NCBI GenBank assembly: GCA_025351345.1
Contig: JANXWB010000080.1
Location: forward strand, 62,001 to 126,000
Direction of reading: 5' to 3'
DNA length: 64,000 nt
From: Synechococcales cyanobacterium GL140_1_metabat_312
GTDB taxonomy: Bacteria > Cyanobacteriota > Cyanobacteriia > Leptolyngbyales > Leptolyngbyaceae
In this document: piece by piece, positions 8,992 through 25,071 of the stretch
How positions within the stretch are numbered: the first letter of the stretch is position 1
Layout of the letters: every line of letters starts with the position of its first letter
Notes under the pieces: generated by a model
Seen by the model: the letters and a program-made list of their open reading frames with translations, nothing else
The model's database searches: none
What the model was told of the DNA's origin: nothing
Translations under genes and position numbers: made by a program

Positions 8992-11900
8992 ATGTCTTTT
9001 GTTGGTCTCCATATCCACAGTGACTACAGCCTCCTCGACGGTGCTAGCCAGTTGCCCCAGCTCATCGATCGTGCCCTAGAGCTGAACATGCCTGCGATCG
9101 CGCTGACAGACCATGGCGTGATGTATGGGGCCGTGGAACTGATCAAAGTCTGCAAAGGGAAACCGATTAAACCGATCGTGGGCAACGAGATGTACGTGAT
9201 CAACGGCGACATCGAAAAACAAGAGCGCCGCCCCCGCTATCACCAAATCATTCTGGCCAAAAACGACATTGGCTATCGTAATCTTGTCAAGCTCACCACC
9301 ATTTCAAATCTCAAAGGTCAGCAAGGAAAAGGCATTTTTGGGCGACCTTGTGTCAACAAAGAATATTTGGAAGAATACCGCGAAGGACTGATTGTCACGA
9401 GCGCCTGTTTGGGCGGTGAAATTCCCCAAGCTATTATTCAAAATCGGCCCGATGTAGCACGGCGGGTTGCAGCTTGGTATAAAGAGCGTTGGGGAGATGA
9501 TTATTATTTAGAAATTCAAGATCATGGATTGATTGAAGAACGGGTTGTGAATCCTGAAATTGTTCGGATTGCCCAAGAACTAGATATTAAGCTTGTTGTT
9601 ACCAATGATTCGCACTTCATTTCTTGCTATGACACCGAAGCCCATGATGCCTTGCTCTGTATTCAGACCGGGAAGTTAATTTCAGAAGATAAACGCTTGC
9701 GGTATACAGGAACTGAATATTTAAAATCTGCTGAGGAAATGAGCTGGTTATTTCGCGATCATTTACCAGAAGATATTGTAAAACAAGGCATCGCGAATAC
9801 ATTAGAAGTCGCAGACAAAATTGAGACCTATCATCTTTTAGGTGAACCGAGAATTCCGGATTACCCAGTTCCAGAGGGCTTTACCATGGCCACTTACTTT
9901 GAGAAGGTGACTTGGGAAGGAATGTTTAAGCGGTTTAAAGTGAATACCCGCGAAGAAATTGAACAAACCTATCGCGATCGGGTCGAATATGAACTCACAA
10001 TGATGCAAAAAATGGGCTTTGATGCCTACTTTTTAGTCGTATGGGATTACATTAAATATGCAAGAGATCGGGGGATTCCCGTTGGCCCTGGTCGTGGTTC
10101 AGCAGCGGGTTCATTAGTTGCTTATGCACTGGAAATCACGAATATTGATCCAGTCCATCACGGATTGTTGTTTGAACGTTTTTTGAATCCAGAACGTAAA
10201 TCAATGCCGGACGTTGATACTGATTTTTGTATCGATCGTCGTCAAGAAGTGATTGATTATGTAACTGAAAAATACGGCAAAGAACGCGTTGCTCAAATTG
10301 TTACCTACAACCGGATGGCTTCAAAAGCCGCTATTAAAGATGTGGCTAGGGTATTGAATGTGCCCTATTCTGAATCCGATAAAATGACCAAAATGATCCC
10401 CGTCATGCGGGGGAAACCGACTAAACTCCCCGTCATGATTTCGGATAAAACCCCTGCTAAAGAATTCAAAGACAAATATGATAGCGGCGATCGGATTCCG
10501 GGCTGTGAGATCACCTATAAGGATTGGATTGATACGGCTATTCGGATTGAAGGGACAAACAAAAGCGTCGGGATTCATGCGGCGGGCGTGGTGATTGCGG
10601 CAGATCCATTAGATGAAATTGTGCCGTTGCAGCGAAATGCGGATGGTGCTGTATTCACTCAATATTATATGGAAGATATTGAAGCACTGGGTTTGCTGAA
10701 AATGGACTTTTTGGGATTGAAGAATCTCACCATGATTCAGAAAACAGTAGATTTAGTAAAGACTTACCGATCGGAGGAGATTGATCTAGATAATCTATCC
10801 TTAGAAGATCCAGAAGTTTATAAACTCTTAGGACGAGGCAATCTCGAAGGTATTTTCCAATTAGAATCATCGGGAATGCGACAAATTGTAAAAGAACTAA
10901 AGCCTGAAGGAATTGATGATATTTCGTCAGTACTAGCGCTTTATCGTCCGGGACCACTGGATGCTGGACTTATTCCTAAATTCATCAATCGAAAACATGG
11001 TCGTGAACGAATTGAATATGAACATGAATTACTAAAACCCATTCTCAATGAAACCTATGGAATCATGGTCTATCAAGAACAGATCATGCGGATTGCCCAA
11101 GATTTAGGCGGTTATAGTCTGGGGCAAGCAGATCTATTGCGGCGGGCGATGGGGAAAAAGAAGAAAGCGGAAATGGAAAAACATCAAACCATTTTTATTG
11201 AAGGAGCGCAGAAAAATGGTGTATCTGAAAAAGTTGCCGCCGGATTGTTTGATCAAATGGTTATGTTTGCTGAATATTGCTTCAACAAATCTCACTCCAT
11301 GGCCTACGGGTATGTCACCTATCAAACGGCCTATCTAAAAGCACATTATCCAGTTGAATATATGGCGGCGTTGCTGTCCTCTAATAGTGGCGATCAAGAA
11401 AAAGTTCAGCGCTACATAGCATCTGCATTGTCTATGGGCATTGAAGTATTACCGCCAAATATTAACCGATCGGACGTAGATTTTACGCCATCTGACAACA
11501 ATATATTGTTTGGACTCACAGGGGTGAGGAACGTCGGACTTGGACCAGTGGCAGCAATTTTGAAAGCACGAGAATCGGGAGGTGACTTTAAATCTTTGGC
11601 GGATTTGTGCGATCGGATTGATTCAAAAATGGTAAACAAACGAGCCTTAGAAGCATTAATCTATTGCGGATCATTCGATACCATTGAAATCAACCGTCAG
11701 CAATTAATTAATGATCTTGAACTAGTGATCGATTGGGCACAATCTCGGGCGAAAGATCGAATTAGTGGCCAAACAAATCTACTAGATTTACTATCCGGCG
11801 GTTCTAAAAAAACAGCGATGCCAGCTTTTGATCTCGCTCCAAAAGCGCCAAAAATCGACGACTACGCCAAACCAGAACGGCTGCGACTCGAAAAGGAAAT

Positions 11901-12507
11901 CCTTGGATTCTACATTTCAGATCATCCCCTCAAAGCCCTTCAGCAGCCCTCTAAAATTTTGGCCCCGATCGATCTATCCAGTCTCAAGGAGATTCAAGGA
12001 AAAACAAATGTCAGCGCCATCATCATGATCACAACGGTGAAGCCAGTCACGACAAAGAAAGGCGATGCTATGTGCATTATTCAAATGGAAGATCTAACCG
12101 GGCAATCTGAAGCGGTAGTATTTCCGAAGTCCTTTATGAAAGTAGGGTATCTGATGAAGCCCGATGCGCGGCTGATGGTGTGGGGAACGGTCGATCGGAA
12201 AGATGATCAAACTCAATTTATTATTGACGATGCTCAATCAATTGAAACCGTAAAAATGGTGATGGTGGAACTGGATGCTAAATTAGCGGGAGATGCCGAA
12301 AAACAACATCGATTGCGCGAAATACTCCGATCGCAAAATGCCGACGATCGCAGCGGTAAAGTTCCGATCGTTGCCATTGTGTCCGCTCAGCAGCGCCAAC
12401 AGTTTGTTCGATTTGGGGCACAATTCCGAGTCAAAGACGATGTTAGTACGGTCGAGGCATTGATCAAAGCTGGATTTATCGCCCGGACAACGGCGCTTGT
12501 CGAGTAA
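8992..12507 (+). CDS. dnaE: DNA polymerase III alpha subunit, uninterrupted
   Basis: The main replicative polymerase, 1171 residues. An N-terminal PHP domain ([11 protein letters not shown]) is followed by the polymerase core with the catalytic motif PDVDTDF (about residue 406), then helix-hairpin-helix and OB-fold regions ([19 protein letters not shown]). ATG 8992 is chosen because GGAG lies 9 bp upstream; a TTG one codon earlier is also in frame. In most cyanobacteria dnaE is split into two distant genes carrying halves of a trans-splicing intein, inserted in the motif AEY/CFN. Here the motif reads straight through ([11 protein letters not shown], junction at 11277/11278), so there is no intein and the gene is contiguous. 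Confidence 0.97.
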
Positions 12508-12558
12508 CGAGACTTTATCTTTGTTCGCAATAACTCGCATCTACTTGCAAATACGCCC

Positions 12559-12580
12559 ATCAATAGCTAAGCTTATTGAT
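12559..12580. promoter_or_regulatory. AT-rich inverted repeat upstream of fur (candidate operator)
   Basis: ATCAATA and TATTGAT flank an 8-nt centre, about 50 bp before the fur start. The size and AT-richness fit a Fur box and autoregulation, but no consensus match was proved. Confidence 0.35.
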
Positions 12581-12629
12581 AACGAGACAATAGTTCAACC
12601 CCAGTTCAACCCCGTTGCCAAACACTCCT

Positions 12630-13085
12630 ATGGCTACCTCTTCTTACAATCCCAATGCACTCAGAGCCGAACTCAATGGAAAGGGTGGACGGCTAACGCC
12701 TCAGCGTGAAAAGATTCTGACGTTTTTCCAAGAGTTACCTGGGGGCGAACATCTCAGTGCGGAAGCGCTCCATACAATGCTCCACGAACAAGAAATCAAT
12801 GTGAGCATTTCCACGGTCTACCGAACCTTAAAGCTGATGACGCAGATGGGGATTTTGCGCGAGCTAGATTTGGGTGATGATTATAAATATTATGAACTCA
12901 ATGGTCCCCGTACCACCCATCACCATCATTTGATTTGTACTAAATGTGGAACGGTGATTGAATTTAAACATGACTCCATTTTGACGATCGGTAGCAAAAT
13001 AACCGATAAAGAAGGGTTTCAACTCCTCGATTGCCAATTATCAGTTCATGGCGTTTGTGCTCCTTGTCAGAGGTCTATAACTTAG
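12630..13085 (+). CDS. fur: Fur-family ferric uptake regulator (FurA-like)
   Basis: A 151-residue metal-dependent repressor. The winged helix spans residues ~10-85 (RLTPQREKIL, STVYRTLKLM). The dimerisation half has the His-rich metal site HHHHLICTKC, the FKHDSIL block and a second CxxC (CAPC) near the end. The pattern is closest to cyanobacterial FurA among the three usual paralogues (FurA, Zur, PerR). It would repress iron-uptake genes when iron is plentiful. ATG 12630 (MATSSYNPN) is preferred over the upstream in-frame TTG at 12615. It follows dnaE by 122 bp and probably has its own promoter. Confidence 0.85.
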   Translation: MATSSYNPNALRAELNGKGGRLTPQREKILTFFQELPGGEHLSAEALHTMLHEQEINVSISTVYRTLKLMTQMGILRELDLGDDYKYYELNGPRTTHHHHLICTKCGTVIEFKHDSILTIGSKITDKEGFQLLDCQLSVHGVCAPCQRSIT

Positions 13086-13163
13086 TTCTAAGAGAGCGTT
13101 TATAACGAGATCTGTGAATGGTTCAGGTTCAAGTTCACGAATGAGGTTTTTGAATGGACGAGG

Positions 13164-13191
13164 CCCCTAGCCCCCAATTCTGGGGGGACAT
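13164..13191. repeat. Half copy of the palindromic CCCCTAGCCCCC repeat
   Basis: CCCCTAGCCCCC, 6 nt, GGGGGGACATGA. This matches the end half of the repeat at 14514-14622 (read on its minus strand). It lies between fur and hicB. Confidence 0.55.
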
Positions 13192-13276
13192 GAGAAAGAA
13201 TTTATCTATGGGTTTGACTGATTAATCGGGTTTTGAATTAGACTGAAATTGGCAGTACGCTTCATGAGAGGAGTTA

Positions 13277-13516
13277 ATGATGCTGAATATTTTAGAAACG
13301 ATTCGGGCTAACATTACATTGGGTGAGGAGAGTGGATATGTCGCTGAATGTCGAGATATTGCGATCGTGACTCAAGGTCGAACATTAGACGAGGTGACGT
13401 TAAATTTACGCTCTGCTGTGGCGCTTTACTTTGAAGGGGAGAATCCGCATGAGTTGGGATTTGTGGAAAAGCCTTCTTTGATGATTACGATCGAGTTGCA
13501 GCCTGTGTATGCCTAA
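13277..13516 (+). CDS. hicB: HicB-family antitoxin
   Basis: A 79-residue HicB-like protein with the small alpha/beta fold: SGYVAECRDIAIVTQGRTLDE, then LNLRSAVALYFEG. It is expected to neutralise the HicA toxin encoded next to it. AGAGGAG immediately upstream is a strong ribosome binding site; the second Met codon (13280) is equally possible. It overlaps hicA by 8 bp, the usual translational coupling. The order is antitoxin first, the reverse of classical hicAB but common in cyanobacteria. Confidence 0.82.
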   Translation: MMLNILETIRANITLGEESGYVAECRDIAIVTQGRTLDEVTLNLRSAVALYFEGENPHELGFVEKPSLMITIELQPVYA

Positions 13517-13754
13517 GTTGAAACAATTATCTGGGGAGGATGTCGTTGGTATTTTGAAATCATTTGGCTTTCAAGTGCAGAGTCAAAAGGGAAGTCATAT
13601 CAAACTAAGACGAACGATCGATGGTCAAAAAGAGACGTTAATTATCCCAGATCACAGTCGATTAGATACTGGAACTTGTCGGGGGATTCTTCGACAGTCA
13701 TCCCAATATATTCCAGAAGAAGAGCTTTGTGAGTTCTTTTATAATGAACAATAG
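13509..13754 (+). CDS. hicA: HicA-family mRNA interferase toxin
   Basis: An 81-residue YcfA/HicA toxin with a double-stranded-RNA-binding-like fold. It has the diagnostic GSHIKLRR with the catalytic His, and IPDHSRLDTGTCRGILRQ at the C-terminal helix. It cleaves mRNA when not bound by HicB. The length is at the upper end for the family because of an acidic tail. Both genes look intact. Confidence 0.85.
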   Translation: MPKLKQLSGEDVVGILKSFGFQVQSQKGSHIKLRRTIDGQKETLIIPDHSRLDTGTCRGILRQSSQYIPEEELCEFFYNEQ

Positions 13755-13900
13755 CAACATATGATCGATCGCACCGACATTAAAAGATCGATCGTCCTTT
13801 AAATTCTATCGCTTGGGCCTCTTCCCTGGAAAGTCTATCGCACCCATGGTCAGCGGTTGGGATGCTACCATCGATGTATTACACGTCAGGGAGAAATGCA

Positions 13901-14131
13901 ATGGAGCTGCGTCAAGACCTTCTAAATTTTATCAGTCAGTTCTCTGACGAACAGTTAGCGTTGCTGATGCCATTGGTTCTTTCATTTCGAGAGAATCATT
14001 CGATGGTCTCTGACCGACCGGAGGTCATCGAGTCTTTTACCAGTGAAGCTTCCACCTCTTACCAATTTTGGGTTGGCGCGGAAAATGATGTTTATGATGA
14101 GTTATTCGTAGATGAATTGGCAACGCGGTGA
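13901..14131 (+). CDS. Probable antitoxin partner of the PemK/MazF-type toxin
   Basis: A 76-residue protein read from ATG 13901, which has AGGGAG 7 nt upstream; the frame is open back to 13862, but that start has no ribosome binding site. It begins MELRQDLLNFISQFSDEQL, a helical segment, and ends in an acidic tail. I do not recognise the family. The antitoxin role is inferred from position: it precedes and overlaps the toxin gene by 20 bp. Confidence 0.6.
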   Translation: MELRQDLLNFISQFSDEQLALLMPLVLSFRENHSMVSDRPEVIESFTSEASTSYQFWVGAENDVYDELFVDELATR

Positions 14132-14465
14132 TGTGGTTCTATGTCGAGTTCCTATGCCTTCGACGCAGCTTCAGCAATTTAAAGTTCGTCCGGCTGTGGT
14201 TGTTTCAGCAGATTTTCTCAACCGAGCCTCGGATGATGTCATGGTTGTTCCTTGTACATCTAATACAAGCCGTCCGATCGCTATCACTCAGTATCTGATT
14301 ACGGGTGATGAAACGGTGGCTGTTGGGATTCGGGTGGATTCAATCGTTCGATGTGAGTCTATTTTTACGTTGAATCAGTCAATGGTTTTACGCAGGTTGG
14401 GAAAATTGAGTACGGAAACGATCGATCGGATTAACAATTGTTTGGTTGCAGCGTTGTCACTTTGA
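14112..14465 (+). CDS. PemK/MazF-family endoribonuclease toxin
   Basis: A 117-residue toxin with the MazF/PemK hallmarks RGDVVLCRVP near the N-terminus, KVRPAVVVSADF, VVPCTSN and the C-terminal VRCESIFTLNQSMV. Members of the family cleave single-stranded RNA at short motifs. The start overlaps the end of the preceding small gene, as expected for a two-gene module. A palindromic repeat begins 49 bp after the stop. Confidence 0.82.
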   Translation: MNWQRGDVVLCRVPMPSTQLQQFKVRPAVVVSADFLNRASDDVMVVPCTSNTSRPIAITQYLITGDETVAVGIRVDSIVRCESIFTLNQSMVLRRLGKLSTETIDRINNCLVAALSL

Positions 14466-14513
14466 GAAGGATCGATCGCACCCACACCAAAAGATCGATC
14501 GTCCTCTAGACCC

Positions 14514-14622
14514 GATCCCCCTAAATCCCCCTTGTGAAGGGGGACTATGAGTTTGATTTCAATTCCCAATCTCATTCCACTTCCCATTCATGTTCCCCCT
14601 TTACAAGGGGGCTAGGGGGATC
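14514..14622. repeat. Palindromic GATCCCCCTA...TAGGGGGATC element
   Basis: A 109-bp element with perfect 10-bp terminal inverted repeats. Each half carries its own hairpin: CCCCCTTGTGAAGGGGG on the left, and CCCCCTTTACAAGGGGG on the right (7-bp stem, 3-nt loop). It has the same layout as the copy at 6711-6824. No coding capacity: it is MITE-like or REP-like. It abuts the stop codon of the caspase-FGE gene. Confidence 0.8.
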
Positions 14623-14626
14623 GAGG

Positions 14627-16528
14627 CTAAGAAAGTCCTCGCGGAGACAGGCAGACAACACGAAAACCCAGGTGGTCGTCCTGGTTCGCCGGATCGAAGT
14701 TGCACCGATAGGCAGAGCGACAATAGCCAGGGTTGAAGTCCCACGAACCGCCACGTACGAGCCGGAGTTTAGATCCGGAATCATTAGAGGCATCCCAAAC
14801 GCGATCGTCGCTCGGTGCATCGCCGTAATTTGAATGCCAAGGATCAAGACACCATTCCCAAACATTTCCATGCATGTTGTACAGTCCAAAGGCATTTGGA
14901 TCAAAGGAATCTACTGCGATCGTGGTCGCCCGATATTCTCCTTTTGATGCTTTCCCGTAGGTATAGTCACCATCAAAATTCGCCAAATCAGTCGTAATCG
15001 TCTCGCCAAAGTGAAACGGAGTCGTTGTTCCTGCACGACAAGCATATTCCCATTGCGCTTCTGTGGGTAGGTCATAAGTCTTTCCAGTTTTCTCAGATAA
15101 TCGGGAAAGCCGATCGAAAAACTCTTTTGCTTCATGCCAAGAAATCGTCTCAACAGGCAAATTAGCACCTTTGAAGTTTGAAGGCTCGGGATTTAGCTCG
15201 ATATTGACCTGATCCAAACTTGCAATCTTTTTCCATTGCGCTTGTGTGACCGCAAATTTTCCCATCCAAAACTCTTTGACATTTACCTCATGTTGCGGAA
15301 ACTCATCATCTGATGCCTCTTGCTCTTTGCTTCCCAGAAAGCCCTTTTTTGCCGCACCCATCTTGAAACTACCGCCGGGAATCTTCACCATATCCAGCGT
15401 AACCCCATCACCCCAATCCTCTTTAAAGTAAGTCGCACTTCCAGGTTTACGCCCAATTTCCTTACCTGTGACATCGACAGTCACAACCTCAAAGGCAAAC
15501 GTTGGAAGTTTTGGTTTTGGTGGTTCTGGCGTGGGAGTGGAAGTCGATCGGGCTGTGGCAGGACGATCGGTTGAAACTTCTATTAAAGGTTTTTGCGATC
15601 GATAAGTGTTTTTCTTCCCTAAAACTCTCGCATAGGCTTGCAGTGCCCTCAAATCTTGTCCTTGTGTCGCCGCAATCACCCGAATCCAAAGCTGTTCAGC
15701 GATCTCCAGCGTCTCCTCCAACTCCGCTTCTTGGGCCTCACTTCTGAGCAAAGCAACATCTTGATCCGTCGCAAACTCAGGCAACAAAATCAAATACGAC
15801 TTTTGCCTAGGCTCCACATAGGTCGCAGGAACTTGCTCCGGCTTTTGATGCTGCTTACAAATTTGCGGAACCCGGCGTTGCAAATACAAATCCAACCGTT
15901 CCACCGTCGCACAATTACGTTCTCCCGGCATTTGCAACGCTTCAAGCAATGCCGCAGTAAAAGCACCCTGTTCCAACGCCTCAATTTCATACGCTTTTCG
16001 ATTGCGCTGACAAGAAAAAATCGTAATCGCTCCCGGTTGCACATCCCCAATCCCCACACCATCCGCCCGATCGCCCTCCGTCCGACAAGCATCCAAAAGC
16101 AAAATCACATTATCCGCCCCCGACTTCAGCAACCTCTCCCGCACAAAGTTTACCGAAATCGCCCGCTTCTCATGATCCGCCAATCGTGGATTGTAATCTA
16201 TTGGCAACAAATAATCACAATCATCAATCCGTTTTCCATGTCCCGCAAAAAAGAACCAACAGTTATCACCCGGAGCCAGTGGAGGCACTTTTGTAGAGAA
16301 CCGATCGTGCAAAAAATCGACCAAATCACTAGATGTTGGATCAGTCGAATTCTGTTCCGACGATGATGGCAAAGTGATTCCATCAGCAAACCAAAAGACC
16401 CGATCGAACTTCGCTTTCACAAAGAAATTATGCATGGCTTCCGCATCCCGATTGGCATACTCAAGCCTGCCTATATTTTTATAAGCATTCACCCCCACCA
16501 CGATCGCCCAATTCTTCGCCTTCGTCAT
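14627..16528 (-). CDS. Caspase-like protease fused to an FGE-sulfatase (C-type-lectin fold) domain
   Basis: A 633-residue fusion. The N-terminal peptidase C14 (metacaspase/orthocaspase) domain has its catalytic dyad at H97 (FFFAGHGKR) and C148 (LLLDACRTE). A helical linker and a Pro-rich stretch (TPTPEPPKPKLP, about 331-342) lead to a formylglycine-generating-enzyme-like domain from about 378, with PGGSFKMG, LPTEAQWEYACRAG and NMHGNVWEW. The C-terminus (from R592) reads RGGSWDFNPGYCRSAYR and GFRVV, the layout of variable regions in cyanobacterial retroelement targets. The likely role is a signal-activated protease whose lectin-like domain senses a ligand; true FGE activity is unlikely. It follows a Pepco-like gene by 60 bp on the same strand. 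Confidence 0.88.
   Translation of the reverse strand: MTKAKNWAIVVGVNAYKNIGRLEYANRDAEAMHNFFVKAKFDRVFWFADGITLPSSSEQNSTDPTSSDLVDFLHDRFSTKVPPLAPGDNCWFFFAGHGKRIDDCDYLLPIDYNPRLADHEKRAISVNFVRERLLKSGADNVILLLDACRTEGDRADGVGIGDVQPGAITIFSCQRNRKAYEIEALEQGAFTAALLEALQMPGERNCATVERLDLYLQRRVPQICKQHQKPEQVPATYVEPRQKSYLILLPEFATDQDVALLRSEAQEAELEETLEIAEQLWIRVIAATQGQDLRALQAYARVLGKKNTYRSQKPLIEVSTDRPATARSTSTPTPEPPKPKLPTFAFEVVTVDVTGKEIGRKPGSATYFKEDWGDGVTLDMVKIPGGSFKMGAAKKGFLGSKEQEASDDEFPQHEVNVKEFWMGKFAVTQAQWKKIASLDQVNIELNPEPSNFKGANLPVETISWHEAKEFFDRLSRLSEKTGKTYDLPTEAQWEYACRAGTTTPFHFGETITTDLANFDGDYTYGKASKGEYRATTIAVDSFDPNAFGLYNMHGNVWEWCLDPWHSNYGDAPSDDRVWDASNDSGSKLRLVRGGSWDFNPGYCRSAYRCNFDPANQDDHLGFRVVCLSPRGLS
14638..14755 (-). 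other. Candidate retroelement variable region at the 3' end of the caspase-FGE gene
   Basis: From R592 onward, ten codons at positions known to vary in this family all have the form NNC: GAC, TTC, AAC (597-599); TGC, AAC, TTC (609-611); AAC (615); GAC, GAC, CAC (617-619). That is what adenine-specific mutagenesis of AAC template codons produces. The rest of the domain uses mixed third bases. No reverse transcriptase or template repeat is in this window, so a donor would have to lie elsewhere. Confidence 0.5.
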
Positions 16529-16588
16529 TGATCCTTACCCACGATCGTCCTAAACCAAAACAATAAGAATTCACCCGATCGTAATTTG

Positions 16589-16975
16589 TTAGGGCTTTTT
16601 AACTTTAAACTTCAACGTCATCGCCCCCTTCATTCCTGCCTTTCCCCCGGAACCCAACAAACTCAACTGGCCCTCCCCATTCACCTCCACCTGAATCTCA
16701 ATCTCATTCAATTCCAGCCCCGTCAACTCCCCCGTTTGTGCCGTCGTTTGTTGAAGCACCTTCCCAATCACACTCACAAAATCCACCATCCCCTGTTGCA
16801 GCTTCTCCGCCGATACCGCAACTCCACGCCTCACCCACTTCACAGGCTGCGAATCCACAGAATCATAGGGATTACATTTAGCATTAGCATCCCGACCACC
16901 AATCACCTCCTCAGCCTCAACCACATCGTCTGTGACAATCCAAACTACATCACTACTCATAACCGCCTCATTCAT
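16589..16975 (-). CDS. Pepco-like peptidase-coupled protein
   Basis: A 128-residue protein with a short N-terminal strand (DVVWIVTDD), a helix (SAEKLQQGMVDFVSVIGKVLQ) and a C-terminal beta region, NEIEIQVEVNGEGQLSLLG followed by a Gly/Lys-rich loop. This matches my recollection of the Pepco (peptidase-co-occurring) domain, found beside caspase-like proteases in NTP-dependent conflict systems. It is transcribed directly ahead of the caspase gene. The likely role is an adaptor or regulator of the protease. MSSDVVW, six codons in, is an alternative start. The family call is from memory of the pattern. Confidence 0.65.
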   Translation of the reverse strand: MNEAVMSSDVVWIVTDDVVEAEEVIGGRDANAKCNPYDSVDSQPVKWVRRGVAVSAEKLQQGMVDFVSVIGKVLQQTTAQTGELTGLELNEIEIQVEVNGEGQLSLLGSGGKAGMKGAMTLKFKVKKP

Positions 16976-17105
16976 TAATCCCTAGGACTATTCTACCCAC
17001 AAAACTTCTAAATGCATGACGATCGCTGAATATCCCTTCATCTTGTAAAATCTTGTAAAATCAGACCGATCGGTTCTAATTAAATAAACCATTAAAATAA
17101 ATCCC

Positions 17106-18842
17106 GTGACCCCACTTTTCGATTCACGCAATCTCAATACTCTATGGGCTTCCATCATTGCCGAAACCCTCGTGCGCTGTGGATTGAAAACCGCAATCAT
17201 TTGTCCTGGATCAAGGTCAGCTCCGTTAACAATTGCCTTTGTCCAACATCCACAAATTGAAACCATTCCTGTATTAGATGAACGATCGGCTAGTTTCTTC
17301 GCCTTAGGAATTGCAAAACAAACTCATCGTCCAGTTGTTTTGATTTGTTCATCCGGGACCGCAGGCGCAAACTTTTATCCAGCAGTGATTGAAGCAAAAG
17401 AGAGCCGAGTGCCGCTATTAGTCTTGACCGCCGATCGTCCACCCGAATTGCGCGACTGTAACGCAGGACAAGCGATCGAACAACAAAGACTATTTAGCAA
17501 TTTCCCAAATTACTCGACAGAATTAGCAATACCTGAATTGAATGTATCGCGACTACAATATGTTCGCCAACGATCGGCACAATGCTATCAACAATGTCTC
17601 TATCCAATTTCTGGCGTTGTTCATCTTAATATTCCATTTCGGGATCCCTTAGCCCCGATCGTAGATCCAGAAGTATCGATATGGTGCGATCGGCTGCCCG
17701 ATGATTTCTTTGATCATTTACGACCATTCACCAAACCGCAGCTTGATCAAACAAACAAACTCCCAAATTCAAAACGCGGGATTATTATTGCAGGAGTTGC
17801 ACAACCCGAAAACCCGGAAACCTATGCCACAGCGATCGCCCGAATCTCAACGCTTACAGGCTTCACAGTATTAGCCGAAGCCTTATCACCCGTTCGCAAC
17901 TATAGTCATTTATTCGATCGCACTCTCATTTCTACTTACGACACCATTTTACGTAATCCAGAATTAGCAAAATCATTAAAACCAGACTTTATTCTGCGTA
18001 TTGGTGAAATGCCCACTAGCAAATTATTACGTCAATGGTTAGATACAAATCTGATTGAAACCTGGATTATTGACGAAAGCGATCGGTCTCTTGATTCACT
18101 TCATGGAAAAACTCATAACTGTTTGACATCGGTAACTACATTTGCAAACTCATTAGAGAAATCATCCCAAAATCAAGATTTAGCCTATTCAAAAAAATGG
18201 GAAGTTACTGAAAATCAAACCCGTGACACGATCGATCGTCTGCTTCAATCTGAATCTAATCTTTTCGAGGGCAAAGCCGCTTGGCTCCTGTCGCAAGTTC
18301 TCCCATCAAACACACCATTGTTCATTTCCAATAGTATGCCCGTCCGGGATATGGAATACTTTTGGAAACCCAACGATCGCACCTATCAAATTTACGTCAA
18401 TCGCGGCGCAAATGGTATTGACGGCTGTCTGAGTACTGCGATCGGAATGGCACACCACAATCAACCGACCGTCATGCTCACGGGTGATTTGACATTGCTT
18501 TATGATACTAATGGATTCCTAATCAAACCTTACTTGCAAGGTCATCTGACAATAGTATTGCTGAATAACAATGGCGGAGGAATCTTTGGAATGTTGCCAA
18601 TTTCCCAATTCAATCCGCCCTTCGAGGAATTCTTTTCAACCCCGCAGAACATTAAATTTCAGAATCTTTGTAAAACCTATCAGGTTGACTATGAACATAT
18701 TCAAGATTGGGAGCATTTGAGCAATCGGCTGAAAACACTTCCCACCCAAGGCATTCGTATCTTAGAACTAAAGTGCGATCGGGGCTTTGATGCAAAATGG
18801 CGTAAAGAAAACTTTAGTGCGATCGCGACAGGTTTGCTATGA
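17106..18842 (+). CDS. menD: 2-succinyl-5-enolpyruvyl-6-hydroxy-3-cyclohexene-1-carboxylate synthase
   Basis: A 578-residue thiamine-diphosphate enzyme that condenses isochorismate with 2-oxoglutarate in phylloquinone (menaquinone-type) biosynthesis, the quinone of photosystem I. The N-terminal PYR domain has LDERSASFFALG with the catalytic Glu. The PP domain has GDLTLLYDTNGF, the cofactor Mg2+-binding motif, and LNNNGGGIFGMLP. The start is GTG 17106 (MTPLFDSRNLNTLW); no better Met is available. It is divergent from the Pepco gene. Confidence 0.95.
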   Translation: MTPLFDSRNLNTLWASIIAETLVRCGLKTAIICPGSRSAPLTIAFVQHPQIETIPVLDERSASFFALGIAKQTHRPVVLICSSGTAGANFYPAVIEAKESRVPLLVLTADRPPELRDCNAGQAIEQQRLFSNFPNYSTELAIPELNVSRLQYVRQRSAQCYQQCLYPISGVVHLNIPFRDPLAPIVDPEVSIWCDRLPDDFFDHLRPFTKPQLDQTNKLPNSKRGIIIAGVAQPENPETYATAIARISTLTGFTVLAEALSPVRNYSHLFDRTLISTYDTILRNPELAKSLKPDFILRIGEMPTSKLLRQWLDTNLIETWIIDESDRSLDSLHGKTHNCLTSVTTFANSLEKSSQNQDLAYSKKWEVTENQTRDTIDRLLQSESNLFEGKAAWLLSQVLPSNTPLFISNSMPVRDMEYFWKPNDRTYQIYVNRGANGIDGCLSTAIGMAHHNQPTVMLTGDLTLLYDTNGFLIKPYLQGHLTIVLLNNNGGGIFGMLPISQFNPPFEEFFSTPQNIKFQNLCKTYQVDYEHIQDWEHLSNRLKTLPTQGIRILELKCDRGFDAKWRKENFSAIATGLL

Positions 18843-18873
18843 TTCAGGTTGATATTCTAATGGAACTTTGAAA

Positions 18874-19266
18874 ATGACAGTTGATTTAGGTTGCTTGTTG
18901 GCCTTGGCGTTGTGGTCCCTGGTATTGAATCACACGCCTGCGATCGGCAAAATGAAAGCAATGGGCGGCGCATGGGGATTGAGCAATCGAGAGGAAACGC
19001 CCACAAATATCGCACCTTGGATTGGTCGAGCCGATCGGGCACAACGCAATCATCTCGACAATTTGCCAATGCTAGCGATCGTAATTCTAATTGCTCACAT
19101 TACCGGACGACATGATTCAATTACAGCGATCGCCTCCGTAGTGATCTTGGTTTCCCGCATCGGCCACAGTTTGAGCTACATCGCAGGAATCACACAACTG
19201 CGACCTGTATGTTATTTGTTGTCTATTATTGCAATGTTTACTATTGTAAAAACGATCGTTTTTTAA
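18874..19266 (+). CDS. MAPEG-family membrane protein
   Basis: A 130-residue integral membrane protein of the MAPEG (eicosanoid and glutathione metabolism) superfamily: four hydrophobic segments, the first at about 4-22, and the loop RADRAQRNHLDNLPMLA, which corresponds to the conserved E/DRAxRNxxE-type motif. It may be a glutathione transferase or peroxidase; the specific reaction is unknown. ATG 18874 is used instead of the in-frame TTG two codons earlier. It follows menD by 31 bp and is probably cotranscribed. Confidence 0.82.
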   Translation: MTVDLGCLLALALWSLVLNHTPAIGKMKAMGGAWGLSNREETPTNIAPWIGRADRAQRNHLDNLPMLAIVILIAHITGRHDSITAIASVVILVSRIGHSLSYIAGITQLRPVCYLLSIIAMFTIVKTIVF

Positions 19267-19336
19267 TTAATCTCGGCAGAATGCTTCGCGATTTGCTAAA
19301 GTCTAATTATTTTCAATCACTTGCGAGGAATTGATT

Positions 19337-19948
19337 ATGGTTGCTCTACAAGACAAACCGTTTCGACTGACACCTCAGCAGTTCTTAGAGTGGGAAAAAA
19401 CTCAGGAGAATCGCCATGAATATGTCAATGGTTATGTGATTGCGATGGCTGGAGGGACGATCGCTCATAATGATATTTCCCTGACGCTATATCGATTGTT
19501 GTATCCACAAGTCCGAGCTTCTCGATGCCGTATTAATGTTGCAGATGTCAAAGTTCAAATTCGGCGGCGCTATCGATATCCAGATTTGGTGATCACTTGC
19601 GACGATCGTGATAAAGTAGCAACGCAACTTTTCCAATATCCTAAAGTCATTATCGAAGTTCTATCGCCCAGCACCGAATCAACCGATCGGGGTAAAAAAC
19701 TACGAGAATATCTATCGATCGATACCCTTCAAGAATATGTTTTAGTCAGTTCCAACGAATCTCTGATCGAAGTTTGTCGACGGAATTCGGACGGTACTTG
19801 GCAATATATTATTTATGAATCTGGGAATGAATTGCGATTAGAAAGTTTAGAATTTACTTGTGCGATCGATGAAATCTATGAATCTATTGTTTTGGATGAG
19901 ATCGTTGAAGAGCCTTTTGATGCAGAAGAACAAGAGGCTGAAGAGTAA
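19337..19948 (+). CDS. Uma2-family (DUF820) restriction-endonuclease-fold protein
   Basis: A 203-residue protein of the very common cyanobacterial Uma2 family. It has the PD-(D/E)XK core: YVNGYVIAMAGG, then RYPDLVITCDD (the PD) and KVIIEVLSPST (ExL). An acidic tail (EEPFDAEEQEAEE) follows. The family is predicted to be nucleases, but the function is not settled. ATG 19337 has GAGGAA upstream; a TTG two codons earlier is also in frame. It is convergent with mutS. Confidence 0.88.
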   Translation: MVALQDKPFRLTPQQFLEWEKTQENRHEYVNGYVIAMAGGTIAHNDISLTLYRLLYPQVRASRCRINVADVKVQIRRRYRYPDLVITCDDRDKVATQLFQYPKVIIEVLSPSTESTDRGKKLREYLSIDTLQEYVLVSSNESLIEVCRRNSDGTWQYIIYESGNELRLESLEFTCAIDEIYESIVLDEIVEEPFDAEEQEAEE

Positions 19949-19966
19949 TCCTAAATAGGTTGGTCA

Positions 19967-22669
19967 TTAGAAAAATCCTAATTGTTCATCTTCATTTGTA
20001 TCTTTGTTTATATCTTTGTTTGCTAGCGACTGATTAACCGATTCAGCCACCTTGCCACCGCCGCGCCGAAGTCCGATCGCAATTTTGCTATGTTTTTCAA
20101 TTTGGCTCATCACTTGTTTGGCTCGAACAATCACGGAGGCTGGTAATCCTGCTAATCGGCCTGCTTCAATGCCATAGGACCGATCGGCCCCGCCCGGTTG
20201 AACTCGATGCAAGAATACAATTTGATCGGGTAATTCTTTTACAGTGACTTGAAAGTTGGCGACATTCGGTAAAATTGAGGCTAATTCATTTAACTCATGA
20301 TAGTGGGTTGCGAAAATAGTCCGCGATCGAATCTCAGAAGCTAAATATTCTGCCACCGCCCAAGCAATTGACAACCCATCAAAGGTCGCTGTACCTCGCC
20401 CGATTTCATCCAACAATACCAACGATCGCGCTGTTGCATGGTTCAAAATATTAGCCGTCTCATTCATTTCCACCATAAAGGTTGATTGCCCGGTTGCCAG
20501 ATCGTCAACAGCTCCGACACGAGTGAAAATACGATCGCAAATCCCCAATTTTGCCGATCGGGCTGGAATAAAACTACCGACTTGGGCTAATAATTGAATC
20601 AATCCAATTTGGCGTAAATAGCAAGATTTTCCTGAGGCATTTGGTCCGGTTAAAATTACTAAATCGGGCACTGATTTTCCCGTTCCTAATTTCGTAGAAT
20701 TCGGGACAAAAAATCCAGCGGGAAGGGATTGTTCAACAACCGGATGGCGACCATCTACAATGTCTAACTCGCGACCTAAATTCTTGGAATCATCCATTTC
20801 AGGACAGCAATACCCTTGGTATACCGCCACTTCCGCCAAACCTGCTAATACATCTGCCGCCGCGATCGCTTTGGCCGCCGATCGGATTGCATCAGCCTGT
20901 TCTCCCACTCGCGATCGAACTTGTGAAAAGATTTCATATTCAATTCGCCCTAATTCATCTTTCGCCAAAAGCAAACGACTTTCGCATTCCTTTAACTCGG
21001 GTGTGAAATACCGTTCTTCATTCGTTAGGGTTTGTTTGCGAATGTAATTATCAGGAACTTGATCCGCTTTGGCACGGGTAATACTCAGGAAATAACCAAA
21101 GTTTTTACTATACCCAACCTTCAATGATGGAATAGCCGTTCTAAGTCGTTCCGTCACTTCAAGATTCGCAATCCATTGCTGGTCATCTTCGACTTGTTTA
21201 CGTCGATCGTCCAATCGGTCGTTGATACCTGATCGAATCAATCCACCATCAGTTAGCGAAATAGAGGGTTTGTCTACTAAATGCGATCGAACATCCGCCG
21301 CAATCTCATCTAGGTTTGGCGGCACAGATTGCAGAACTTGTAAATAGGGAGACTTGGCCCCACTCACCAACGCAGCCAACACGGGAAGTTTTTCTAAAGA
21401 ATCCGCCAACGCCACCAAATCACGAGGACTCGCGCTCCCCGATCCAGCTCGTCCAGCCAGCCGTTCGAGATCATAAATTTGTCGCAGGAGTTTCTGCAAA
21501 TCTTCCCGCAAAATTCCGTCGTCTACCAATTCTCGTAAGGTCTGTTGCCGTGCTTGAATGCCCATCGAATTTAATAAGGGCTGCTGCAACCATCGCCGCA
21601 ATGCTCGCGATCCCATGGGCGTAATCGTCCGATCGATCGCCCACAACAACGATCCATGAAACGTCCCATCTCGCTGGGTTTGAGTAATTTCTAAATTACG
21701 CCGAGTTGCACCATCAAGAACTAAAAATTCCGACAGACTATAAGTAGACAACAATTGCAGCGGAACTTTGGTCGTCATTTTTGTAGTGTCTGCATCTCGG
21801 CCCTGATCCCACGATCGTTCAGATGTCCGCTCCAAATATTCCAACAATCCCCCTGCCGCCCGCACCGCCAATGGCAAATCTTCGCAGCCTAATCCTTCTA
21901 AAGATCGCACCCGAAACCTAGTCATTAATCGCGATCGGGCTTCCGCTTGAGCAAATCCGCTTTGAGGCCGCAGAGTATAGCAAAACTGAGGCGGCATACA
22001 GCTTGGCAACTGGTCCGACTTTTCACCGGGACGCAGCAACCCAACCAAATCGGGCGCATTGGCCGGAACCAAAATTTCTGCGGGTTGGAGTCGTTGAATT
22101 TCGTGGGTTAAATTCTCCAGGCCCGTATGCTGTGCCGTGAAAAATTCTCCCGTAGAAATATCCGCGTAGGCAATCCCCCAATGATGGTTTGCAATCACCA
22201 CCGCCGCCAAAAAATTATTCCGCCGAGCATTCAACATGCCCTCTTCCAGCAACGTCCCCGGTGTCATTACCCGCGTCACTTCCCGCCGCACCAATCCCTG
22301 GGCCATGGCCGGATCCTCGACCTGATCGCACAGCGCCACCGAAAATCCTTTCTCCACCAACTGCGCACAATATCGATCGACCGCATGGTGAGGAATCCCC
22401 GCCAACGGCACGCGCCCGATCGACTTCCCCGCATCCTTACTCGTCAGCACTAGCTCCAATTCACGAGCGATCGTCACGGCATCCTGAAAAAACGTCTCAA
22501 AAAAATCACCCACCCGATACATCAGCAACGCTTGAGGATACTGGTCTTTTGTTTCCGCATAGTGGCGCATCATGGGTGACAACGCGGCCCGATCGACTTG
22601 GTTATGATGGCTGTACTTTATGTCGTGTTTGACGAGACGATCGGGAATTTCGGGCGGGGTTTGAGACAT
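19967..22669 (-). CDS. mutS: DNA mismatch repair ATPase
   Basis: A 900-residue MutS1. The N-terminal mismatch-recognition domain has the Phe-x-Glu motif in [10 protein letters not shown]. Connector, core, clamp and ATPase domains follow: Walker [10 protein letters not shown], then [18 protein letters not shown], and the helix-turn-helix region with [13 protein letters not shown]. The tail ([21 protein letters not shown]) ends in a sequence that fits a beta-clamp-binding peptide. It is monocistronic here and divergent from the GNAT gene. Confidence 0.97.
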
Positions 22670-22852
22670 AGGATTTAGCAGGACGAGGACGACTAAAAAA
22701 TTTTAGGCAAAATCTTAGTCAAAAAATGAACCGAACAAGGTGAAAATAGAACCTAGACCCAATAAAAAAATCAATAAACCCAATAAATAGTTACATTGAG
22801 AGAATTCCTGACGGCCTATCTCATTCCCACCCCTACGCTACGATATACCGAT

Positions 22853-23491
22853 ATGACGCTGCAATTCTCCACCGATCGTCTCACGATTCGCCCCGCCGAA
22901 GAACGCGATGTCATTTGGGGGGCAGACCTGATGTTTTCCGCTAGTTCGGGACTATTTGGCTACGTTTTTGCCTCAACCCCCGAGAAATCTCTGGATATTT
23001 TGCGTCAAGCCTTTGGGGAACGAAGTCATGCATTTAGCTATGAATTCGCACAGATTGTGGAAGTGGACGATCGGGTGGCGGGCATTGTCTTGAGCTATCC
23101 CGGTGATGTAAAACGCCGTGCTGAGGAAAGTATTCAGGGCATTATGGCGAAGATTCTGCCGCTGCAACGCGTGCCTAGAATTTTGGTTAATTTGGCCGAC
23201 TTGAGTCGAATTAAACAAGACGTAAAATTGGAAATGTATTTTATTTTGAGTCTTTGCATTGCGCCGGAATACCGCGATCGGGGGTTGGGGACGGCGCTAT
23301 TAAATGATACCGAACTAACAGCAAAGGAATCGGGCTGTACTAGCATGGCCTTAGATGTCGCCTATACCAATATTCGTGCCCAAAGGTTATTCGCTCGTCA
23401 GGGCTACCACATCACCTGTAGCAAAACCAGTCAACGATTTGGCTCCATGACTGAGGCGGGTGGCTTGCATCGTATGGAGAAGCCGTTGTGA
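22853..23491 (+). CDS. GNAT-family N-acetyltransferase
   Basis: A 212-residue acetyltransferase. The acetyl-CoA-binding motif is YRDRGLGTALLNDTE, preceded by the beta-strand block MYFILSLCIAPE; TNIRAQRLFARQGY is the typical C-terminal helix. The substrate is unknown. ATG 22853 (MTLQFSTDRLTIRPAEERD) is preferred over the upstream TTG at 22796 because the domain starts there. Its stop overlaps the start of lnt by 4 bp (GTGA), so the two are translationally coupled. Confidence 0.87.
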   Translation: MTLQFSTDRLTIRPAEERDVIWGADLMFSASSGLFGYVFASTPEKSLDILRQAFGERSHAFSYEFAQIVEVDDRVAGIVLSYPGDVKRRAEESIQGIMAKILPLQRVPRILVNLADLSRIKQDVKLEMYFILSLCIAPEYRDRGLGTALLNDTELTAKESGCTSMALDVAYTNIRAQRLFARQGYHITCSKTSQRFGSMTEAGGLHRMEKPL

Positions 23492-25071
23492 GTTGGAGGG
23501 TGAGATTGAGCAAGGGATCCAGTCAAGTCTTGACCCGATTTCCTGGGTTGATGGCGTTGCTCGGCGGAATGCTAATGGCCCTGGGTCCGGCTCCATTAAA
23601 TTTATGGATCGTGGCGTGGGTGGCGATCGTTCCGCTTTGGTGGCTGGCGATCGAAGGCCGATCGCCTGTCAAATCAGGAATTCTCTGGGGAATTGCATAT
23701 CACGGAATTTCGTTGTTTTGGATTACGGGATTGCATCCGTTAATGTGGATGGACCCGGCCAATATCACCTACGTCCATAGCGTGGCGATCGTTGCTGTGA
23801 TTTGGGGATTTATTACCCTTTTTGGTGCCGTTTGCGTCGGATTGTGGGCGGGCGCGATAGCTTGGATGACGAAACGCCGAATTAATCCGATCATTCGGGT
23901 GTTGAGTGCGGCGGCGTTGTGGGGCACGATCGAACAGCTTCGGTCTTATTCGGCATTGGACTGGACGGGCATTGCTTACACTCAAAGTCCAGGAAACTTA
24001 GCAATTTTGCATCTGGGTCAAATTTCTGGGAATGCCTTGATTGCGGCGACGATCGTGGCGGTGAATGGTGCAATAGCGGAATCTTGGCGATCGGATGAGC
24101 GATCGGGCTTTTCCCGACTAACGACCCGATTTACAGATCTACTGCCTGCGATCGGGCTGTTCACAATGGCCCATCTAATTGGCTGGGGAATCTCCCTTGC
24201 TGCGTCTCCAAGTCAAGGCAATCCAATCCGCATCGGCACAGTTCAGGGCAACATTGGAACCCGGACTCAATTTTCGGAGGCAGGGGTACGGCAAGGGTTC
24301 AAAAACTACAGCGGCGGATACGAAACCCTGGTAGCACGCGGCGCACAAATGGTGCTGTTTCCTGAAGGTTCTTTTCCTATGAGATGGGCCGATTACCCGA
24401 ATAATCCCATGGCCCAAAAAATACAAGCGCTCAAAGTCCCCGTAGCGTTAGGAGCCTCTGGACTGAGGGCCGATCGGCGGATGACGCAAGCGATGTTTAT
24501 GGTGGACGATCGCGGCAAAATCATGAGCCAATACGACAAAGTAAAAGTTGTTCCCTTGGGCGAAGCATTGCCGTTTGAGGAAGTTCTGGGCAACTTCATT
24601 CGCCGAATTTTCCCTATTCAAGATTCTTTGGTTCCTGGTCAACCCGACCAAATTTTTAAAACGCCCTTCGGTCAAGCTGGCATAGGAATTTGCTATGAAT
24701 CTGCCTTCCCGGAGATTTTTCGCCGTCAAGTCCAGCAGGGCGCAACCTTTCTAATGACGGCTTCCAACCTAGATCCCTACGGCACCGTCCTAATGGCGCA
24801 ACAAGAAGCCCATGACACCATGCGCGCTATTGAAAGCGATCGGCCCCTGATTCGGGTGACCAATACAGGCTATTCCGGCTTAATTGAATCCACAGGCCAA
24901 ACAAAATGGAGATCGCAACCTAATCGCTACGACCTCCACATAAGCGAGCTATATCCTCGCACTAGTCAGACTCTTTATGTTCGCTATGGCAACTGGATTA
25001 CGCCACTGCTATTGGGTTTGAGCTTTGTCTTGAGCCTAAGTCCGATCGGCATTATTACCCGACAAAAATAA
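23488..25071 (+). CDS. lnt: Apolipoprotein N-acyltransferase
   Basis: A 527-residue membrane enzyme that adds the third acyl chain to lipoproteins at the periplasmic face. Several membrane segments fill the first ~230 residues. A nitrilase-like domain then carries the catalytic triad Glu (FPEGSFP), Lys (YDKVKVVPLGE) and Cys (GICYESAFPEIF). A last membrane segment lies near the C-terminus. The start is GTG 23488, overlapping the GNAT stop. The lipoprotein at 61554-63089 is an example of a potential substrate. Confidence 0.93.
   Translation: MSWRVRLSKGSSQVLTRFPGLMALLGGMLMALGPAPLNLWIVAWVAIVPLWWLAIEGRSPVKSGILWGIAYHGISLFWITGLHPLMWMDPANITYVHSVAIVAVIWGFITLFGAVCVGLWAGAIAWMTKRRINPIIRVLSAAALWGTIEQLRSYSALDWTGIAYTQSPGNLAILHLGQISGNALIAATIVAVNGAIAESWRSDERSGFSRLTTRFTDLLPAIGLFTMAHLIGWGISLAASPSQGNPIRIGTVQGNIGTRTQFSEAGVRQGFKNYSGGYETLVARGAQMVLFPEGSFPMRWADYPNNPMAQKIQALKVPVALGASGLRADRRMTQAMFMVDDRGKIMSQYDKVKVVPLGEALPFEEVLGNFIRRIFPIQDSLVPGQPDQIFKTPFGQAGIGICYESAFPEIFRRQVQQGATFLMTASNLDPYGTVLMAQQEAHDTMRAIESDRPLIRVTNTGYSGLIESTGQTKWRSQPNRYDLHISELYPRTSQTLYVRYGNWITPLLLGLSFVLSLSPIGIITRQK

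Follow-up and report, generated by a model that had tools for sequence, protein, structure and literature searches.

A putative two-gene conflict module of Pepco and a caspase-FGE fusion in a cyanobacterium of the Leptolyngbyaceae

The Pepco and caspase-FGE genes

We analysed a pair of adjacent genes in a stretch of 64,000 nucleotides (hereafter the window) from Synechococcales cyanobacterium GL140_1_metabat_312 (assembly GCA_025351345.1, contig JANXWB010000080.1). The genome comprises 3.85 Mb in 100 contigs, among which that of the window is C33. The first gene of the pair encodes a small Pepco-domain protein and the second a caspase-like protease fused to a domain of the formylglycine-generating enzyme (FGE) family, whose C-terminus has a variable region (VR) of the kind associated with diversity-generating retroelements (DGRs). 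The features of the pair, by position in the window, are listed below.

16589..16975, minus strand: Pepco-domain protein, 128 aa, first gene of the pair (PF24393, E 1.7e-28; AlphaFold model)
14627..16528, minus strand: caspase-FGE fusion protein, 633 aa, second gene of the pair (PF00656, PF03781)
15812..16513, minus strand: caspase (C14) domain, residues 6-239, dyad His97/Cys148 (profile, alignment, Foldseek)
15593..15808, minus strand: helical segment, residues 241-312, putative spacer between protease and sensor (model secondary structure, pLDDT)
14654..15394, minus strand: FGE/C-type-lectin domain, residues 379-625 (PF03781, alignments, fold matches)
14654..14755, minus strand: DGR-type variable region, codons 592-625, RGGSWDFNPGYCRSAYRCNFDPANQDDHLGFRVV (motif as in the variable regions and templates of relatives; codon signature)

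The initial annotation, made from the letters of the window, had proposed a Pepco-like gene at 16589-16975 that runs into a caspase-like protease gene with intact His97/Cys148, and profile searches bear out both assignments. The Pepco profile PF24393 scores 99.8 bits against a cut-off of 27 and aligns residues 11-124 with model positions 1-111 of 112, so that the protein lies above the Pfam cut-off across the domain and belongs to the Pepco family. A sub-threshold match to Trypco1 (0.008) hints at a kinship of Pepco with that family. The two genes lie on a common strand with a gap of 60 bp, and in several relatives they abut or overlap. The window's Pepco is the single match in its own genome, which contains two caspase matches and four FGE matches in total, one of the latter being a DGR template.

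The AlphaFold model of the Pepco protein is of middling confidence (mean pLDDT 68.9, pTM 0.54) and displays two strands, then one long helix and then three strands. Searches of the PDB returned no match by sequence and no convincing match by fold (best E 0.85). At its C-terminus stands a conserved stretch of LKFKR type (LKFKVKK in the window protein), which is modelled as a strand. No membrane helix was seen by eye.

In the fusion protein, Peptidase_C14 (PF00656) matches residues 6-239 with E 2.7e-21 and 76.7 bits. His97 and Cys148 are both present and are invariant in all 38 aligned caspase-FGE sequences, a set preselected as caspase-FGE proteins of 560-760 aa; the caspase domain together with this His-Cys dyad places the protein among the Peptidase C14 orthocaspases. 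The model (mean pLDDT 80.6, pTM 0.51) consists of a caspase-like part, the helical segment, a low-confidence stretch right after it (residues 314-339) and an FGE/lectin part. Judged from the model, segment 241-312 may serve as a linker. With Foldseek, the caspase end retrieves MALT1 structures, from E 9.5e-12, and the FGE end lies nearest to PvdO, FGEs and the DGR protein TvpA (5hha and 2y3c among the matches).

The FGE-sulfatase profile (PF03781) matches residues 379-625 with E 1.7e-52, and the domain can be aligned both to FGE and to the Treponema variable protein TvpA. The catalytic cysteine pair of human FGE is C336/C341. This pair is not preserved in the window, where its first position aligns to Phe598, a variable codon; the domain is for this reason unlikely to be an enzyme, in agreement with the initial view of it as a sensor. 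As in DGR variable proteins, a C-type-lectin fold is combined with a C-terminal VR.

Conservation of the pair and exchange of partner domains

Two sets of loci were used to follow the pair in relatives. In the first, 58 genomes were searched for Pepco, the window's own included; 23 of them contain it, and 38 Pepco places outside the own genome were fetched. The second (the named loci) consists of the best 80 of 110 relatives from a collection of 84,980 species, obtained with one peptide pattern; all 80 are cyanobacterial, as judged by record title. The sets overlap, locus L084 of the second being, for example, a contig of genome G003 of the first. A caspase gene was counted as nearby when it lay on the same strand and started no more than 3.5 kb 5' or 1.2 kb 3' of the Pepco match, and as directly 3' when the gap was at most 150 bases with no reading frame of at least 70 aa in between.

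The pairing recurs in both sets. A caspase match lies within the fetched stretch at 30 of the 38 places, 11 of these with FGE. Among the 80 named loci, 65 (raw count) have a nearby same-strand caspase gene, 60 of them on the 3' side and five only on the 5' side. In 56 of the 60, the caspase stands directly 3' of Pepco, and 38 of the 65 loci carry FGE. The remaining caspases in the named loci are only two, about 8 kb off and on the opposite strand. Hence, the Pepco profile match and the co-occurrence of the two genes, on which the initial annotation had staked its proposal of a unit, were both found. The same annotation had regarded the usual NTPase as absent. The window pair indeed has none, but no rule of this kind was found, as most Pepco loci consist of Pepco and a caspase.

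Of the 27 partners without FGE, 21 were scanned, the rest being mostly cut off. All 21 contain a caspase domain. Their further domains are GUN4 (5), nSTAND5 (3), CHAT (2), WD40 (1) and AAA_35 (1), nSTAND5 and AAA_35 being NTPase-type. The constant core is therefore Pepco plus a caspase-type protease, with further C-terminal domains that are exchangeable and a few of which are NTPases. In eight of the 15 named loci that lack a nearby caspase match, we scanned a gene 3' of Pepco. Five of these genes carry CHAT, a caspase-like domain (L093, L094, L110, there with GUN4, L118 and L130); the other three have GUN4 alone (L109), an AAA-type NTPase (L095) and a SWIM domain (L148). In L136 and L150, DGR parts lie 5' of Pepco, with a contig edge on that side.

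The relation of Pepco to each half of the fusion protein was assessed by correlating sequence distances over 35 single FGE pairs, which gives r 0.91 for Pepco and caspase and r 0.86 for Pepco and FGE. In partial Mantel tests (n = 35), the values are 0.65 for Pepco-caspase vs 0.33 for Pepco-FGE, both at the permutation floor. By this measure, Pepco follows the caspase better than the FGE.

The DGR-type variable region

The C-terminal motif RGGSWxxxPxxCRSAxRxxxxPxxxxxxxGFRVV recurs across the set, with differing residues at the x positions. The same-genus copy in G003 (L065) served as reference for the window VR. Within codons 592-625, the two copies differ at 11 first, 6 second and 4 third codon positions, and over the 577 codons before codon 592 at 153, 119 and 282, respectively. 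Third positions are thus changed in 4 of 34 VR codons vs 282 of 577 elsewhere (Fisher p 1.2e-5), and comparing positions 1-2 with position 3 between the VR and the rest gives p 0.006. With a window of 34 codons, four or fewer third-position changes are confined to starts between codons 571 and 592, and each 34-codon stretch ending before codon 577 has at least nine. A sliding-window statistic (positions 1+2 minus 3) was dropped in favour of the third-position test because the poorly conserved linker outscores the VR, whose value is reached in 42 of 585 windows. As far as sequence can tell, the codon pattern is the one to be expected from replacement by a shared template with mutated AAC/AAT codons.

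A search for the template of the window VR with a degenerate pattern, allowing at most three mismatches, retrieved only the VR itself in G000-G003, which are among the 58 genomes (G002 is 69% complete). A reverse transcriptase (RT) like that of G017 was not found in G001-G003 at E 1e-20. The DGR machinery may be gone, or the draft assemblies may simply not include it. A predominance of VR-template mismatches at template adenines, as found in some relatives, was not found for the window copy.

Elsewhere in the same genome, contig C64 harbors a DGR with a template and two VRs, whose mismatches fall at template adenines in 13 of 16 and 12 of 16 cases. Its RT is the only RT match in the genome; it is in two pieces and lacks about residues 85-202 of a full-length relative, and no intact RT was found. 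With the middle third of the RT gone, both C64 variable regions should now be fixed, while an assembly error could also lie behind the gap. The surrounding stretch (C64:32000-46000, L014) contains CHAT-iSTAND, AAA ATPase and vWA-CoxE genes, two FGE targets and the template, and by its gene content is a DGR-linked iSTAND-type ternary system. The window VR was rejected as a remote target of the C64 DGR, with 63% identity and just 13 of 37 mismatches at template A. An Avd gene beside the same-genus pair (L084) was likewise rejected: the 130-aa gene there matches DUF559.

Since no fitting template is at hand, we filed the window VR as DGR-derived and not as a current DGR target. The window receptor looks frozen, because a matching template is lacking and the sole RT found is without its middle, and the sensor is probably the fixed product of past DGR activity.

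Templates were found in a number of relatives. The genome G017 is a single contig. Its Pepco-linked caspase-FGE gene at C1:1505673 has a VR that is 90% identical to a distant template at C1:4996469, with 12 of 13 mismatches at template A. In L087 (metagenome-assembled genome M55_K2018_004), the Pepco and caspase-FGE genes are united in one cassette with bAvd, a 364-aa RT frame and a template, and 19 of 20 VR mismatches are at template A. Altogether, template-like copies occur in nine of 38 caspase-FGE loci. Summed over the nine, 134 of 190 mismatches are at template A, with A making up 238 of 1102 template columns. The eight loci besides L087 are Nostocales by title (L092, L099, L100, L105, L106, L111 and L112 among the template-bearing ones) and have the copy about 190-410 bp 3' of the gene, with no RT within the stretch. 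Elsewhere in the respective genomes, at E 1e-20, a full-length RT match was found only for L111, whose template-like copy is frame-disrupted; matches for L099 and L105 are partial or distant, and none was found for L092, L100, L106 and L112. In a comparison of 14 genomes, based on fetched stretches and a motif filter that can miss templates, these were recognised in three. Avd-like genes lie near Pepco in L087, L097, L128, L136 and L150, the order in L150 being Avd, RT, template and Pepco from the contig edge.

Plasmid copies and a CBASS-type operon

With the window Pepco as query, no Pepco was found in phages or plasmids, and queries with the Pepco of relatives gave three plasmid matches. Sinorhizobium meliloti psymA has a caspase-FGE gene on the 5' side of Pepco, and papain-family and caspase-domain genes come after the two (L248 6827-10213). 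In Rhizobium jaguaris, an unannotated frame 5' of Pepco reads, by eye, like caspase-FGE. On plasmid pOSC7112.01 of Oscillatoria nigro-viridis PCC 7112 (L250 5001-8580), Pepco ends one base before a caspase-SAVED gene, which is followed by a DncV-like CD-NTase gene; a ThiF gene, a weak JAB match and an annotated E2-like gene are found on the opposite strand. PADLOC reports effector and caspase hits for the second gene and cyclase hits for the third. By these genes, the locus is an operon of the type of the cyclic-oligonucleotide-based antiphage signalling system (CBASS), a type known from anti-phage defence, and its effector is a Pepco-caspase. Searches of the two sets of translated loci with phmmer returned neither SAVED nor CD-NTase for any other Pepco locus.

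Neighbourhood of the pair

The scanned neighbours in the window encode Fur, HicA, PemK, MAPEG, Uma2, two proteins without hits, a MenD-like thiamine pyrophosphate enzyme and DnaE. Just past the 3' end of the caspase gene, at 13277-14465 on the plus strand, there are two toxin-antitoxin-like pairs.

13509-13754, plus strand: HicA with a small upstream gene (profile match)
14112-14465, plus strand: PemK/MazF toxin with a small upstream gene (profile match)

For a wider view of the surroundings, 118 genes flanking pairs were compared with 106 distant control genes by the 25 commonest of 127 and 121 families, respectively. The flanking families are a mixed set in which defence is not clearly enriched over the distant genes, and the 25 commonest of them include no NTPase family. 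Toxin-antitoxin genes were rejected as a general companion of the pairs, as no such family is among the 25 commonest of either the flanking or the control genes.

Directly 3' of the caspase gene (14461-14626), the window displays a C/G-rich repeat with inverted arms. The repeat is shared with the same-genus L084, which has another copy downstream, and looks like a small repeat element. When positions 9001-24000 of the window are compared by blastn with the 13.7 kb of L084, the alignment covers only 14513-16825, which corresponds to the gene pair and the flank 3' of it, and a short repeat.

A candidate receptor-protease module

On balance, we read the pair as a two-gene conflict module, probably directed against invaders, with a ligand-triggered caspase and with Pepco as its regulator. 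The C-terminal lectin/FGE domain would be the binding domain, its loops having been diversified by a DGR in this lineage. Ligand binding, perhaps through clustering via the helical linker, would turn on the N-terminal caspase. Pepco would belong with the caspase domain, as its dedicated partner, and not with the sensor; its role would most likely be regulatory, either silencing the protease or presenting a substrate to it. Once active, the protease would cut cell proteins, and the cell would stop or die. From its sequence, the pair looks like a compact and tunable protease switch triggered by infection, conceivably by phage, and defence is the purpose that we favour.

To a broader reading we give somewhat less than even confidence. 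The pair may be a minimal NTPase-free immune unit of receptor and protease, in which a re-writable lectin domain is fused to a caspase and checked by Pepco. The Pepco-caspase core on other sensors, including SAVED in CBASS, would then make Pepco a mark of a general caspase-effector cassette of bacterial immunity. If true, very few steps would separate a hypermutable binding domain from a death-type protease in bacteria, and Pepco would be a named partner with a role open to test in a two-gene system. The proposal that DGR targets are antigen sensors would be reduced to a simple assay of ligand, protease activity and cell fate, for which the window copy is useful as a naturally fixed variant because its DGR appears to be gone.

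Several observations weigh against a conflict module of this design. Apart from the two toxin-antitoxin-like pairs and the Uma2 gene, the scanned window neighbours are non-defence genes, and PADLOC yields no hit for the window Pepco and a partial hit for the caspase. The CBASS link rests on one operon, as the other Pepco loci gave no matches to SAVED or CD-NTase. Among the 80 named Pepco loci, 15 have no nearby caspase match; some of them end at a contig edge and some have CHAT. The Pepco-FGE relation given the caspase also exceeds all permutations (p 0.0005, the lowest value that the test can give), and common descent can be behind part of the Mantel result. DGR action on the window copy rests on the codon pattern, because the source template was not found. 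In relatives, 29 of 38 caspase-FGE loci have no template in the stretch; the template match is weak in L100 (14 of 28 mismatches at A), L101 (13 of 24) and L106 (10 of 21), and the template of G029 fits its Pepco-linked VR poorly (16 of 35).

Pepco might also be an effector or pro-effector that is activated by caspase cleavage, rather than a regulator of the caspase. Published accounts of two systems speak for this: in Canu, the caspase turns on a nuclease encoded with it (PMC12799240), and the orthocaspase MaOC1 of Microcystis cuts the product of a neighbouring antitoxin gene, the most likely site being the antitoxin's basic C-terminus (PMC7935541). The conserved end of Pepco could be read along these lines. 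However, this end is modelled as a strand, no catalytic motif was seen in the small protein, it has no PDB match by sequence or fold, and the small CanB of Canu co-purifies and forms a complex with the caspase, which suits a regulator (PMC12799240). We consider an effector role unlikely and retain Pepco as a regulator.

We judge it just as doubtful that the fusion protein is a housekeeping or stress-signalling orthocaspase tuned by the binding of small molecules. Vallota-Eastman et al. (2020, PMC7517822) put forward regulatory tuning as a role of cyanobacterial DGR targets, the GUN4 domain found in 5 of 21 non-FGE partners is a tetrapyrrole sensor, and the mixed flanking families without clear enrichment of defence fit this picture as well. 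It is harder to reconcile with the SAVED-caspase that accompanies Pepco in a CBASS-type operon, and with the FGE-DGR parts of ternary conflict systems, one of which lies in the own genome at C64.

Considerably less probable is a divergence of the variable loop by ordinary positive selection, with no DGR acting on the window copy. Such a course would explain why neither a template nor an intact RT was found in the window's assembly, but it fits badly with third positions that are nearly unchanged across the VR and its flanks while positions 1-2 are changed, and with the minimum of nine third-position changes in stretches ending before codon 577. Finally, a working formylglycine-generating or related enzyme that acts on the caspase or Pepco, already disfavoured above, is hardly credible in spite of the strong family match, given Phe598 at one of the two catalytic cysteine positions and nearest folds that include TvpA beside PvdO and FGEs.

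Comparison with known systems

Orthocaspases diversified by DGRs are known from the literature. Vallota-Eastman et al. (2020, PMC7517822) describe cyanobacterial DGR variable proteins with orthocaspase N-termini and remote copies. Those proteins resemble that of the window in the caspase-like N-terminus and the C-terminal C-type lectin with a VR, and their local or remote templates have counterparts in the relatives of the window pair. Unlike in the systems described there, the DGR of the window has apparently decayed or disappeared. Accounts of FGS-DGR parts in conflict systems date from 2020 (PMC7159879) and 2021 (eLife, PMC8195603), and DGR targets were proposed as antigen sensors in 2024 (PMC10907252).

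The initial annotation recovered the domains and their pairing and missed the DGR-type variable region at the C-terminus of the FGE. It had attributed both Pepco and Trypco to Kaur et al.; Trypco1/2 are named in PMC7159879, but 'Pepco' has no occurrence there, and the name used here comes from Pfam. The word is equally absent from PMC8195603, PMC7517822 and PMC10907252, and neither 'Pepco domain' nor 'peptidase co-occurring' was found in the open-licence PMC papers searched.

The VMAP/iSTAND MoxR-vWA ternary systems, as described in PMC7159879, share with the loci studied here FGS/FGE with a DGR, caspase or trypsin peptidases and small co-occurring proteins, which in those systems are Trypco. 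They differ in that the FGE of the window is fused directly to the protease, and no MoxR, vWA or other NTPase is found in the window pair or the neighbours scanned. The EACC1-caspase system (Kaur et al. 2020, System 4, PMC7159879) likewise combines a constant 5' gene with a 3' caspase and exchangeable C-terminal domains. In that system, the 5' gene encodes a membrane-helix protein, and the system is prevalent in actinobacteria, whereas the loci here are cyanobacterial. Canu, as reported in PMC12799240, also places a caspase and a small partner protein in the same operon and has a MALT1-like caspase fold; no gene for a gated MBL-type nuclease is among the scanned neighbours in the window.

CBASS is matched by the Oscillatoria locus, with Pepco one base before caspase-SAVED and the CD-NTase beside it. 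The window pair has FGE in place of SAVED, and its scanned neighbours include no CD-NTase gene. As far as our searches show, what the present loci add to these systems is the partnership of Pepco with DGR-type caspase receptors, which was not found in the literature searched, the apparently frozen copy of the window and the single link to CBASS.

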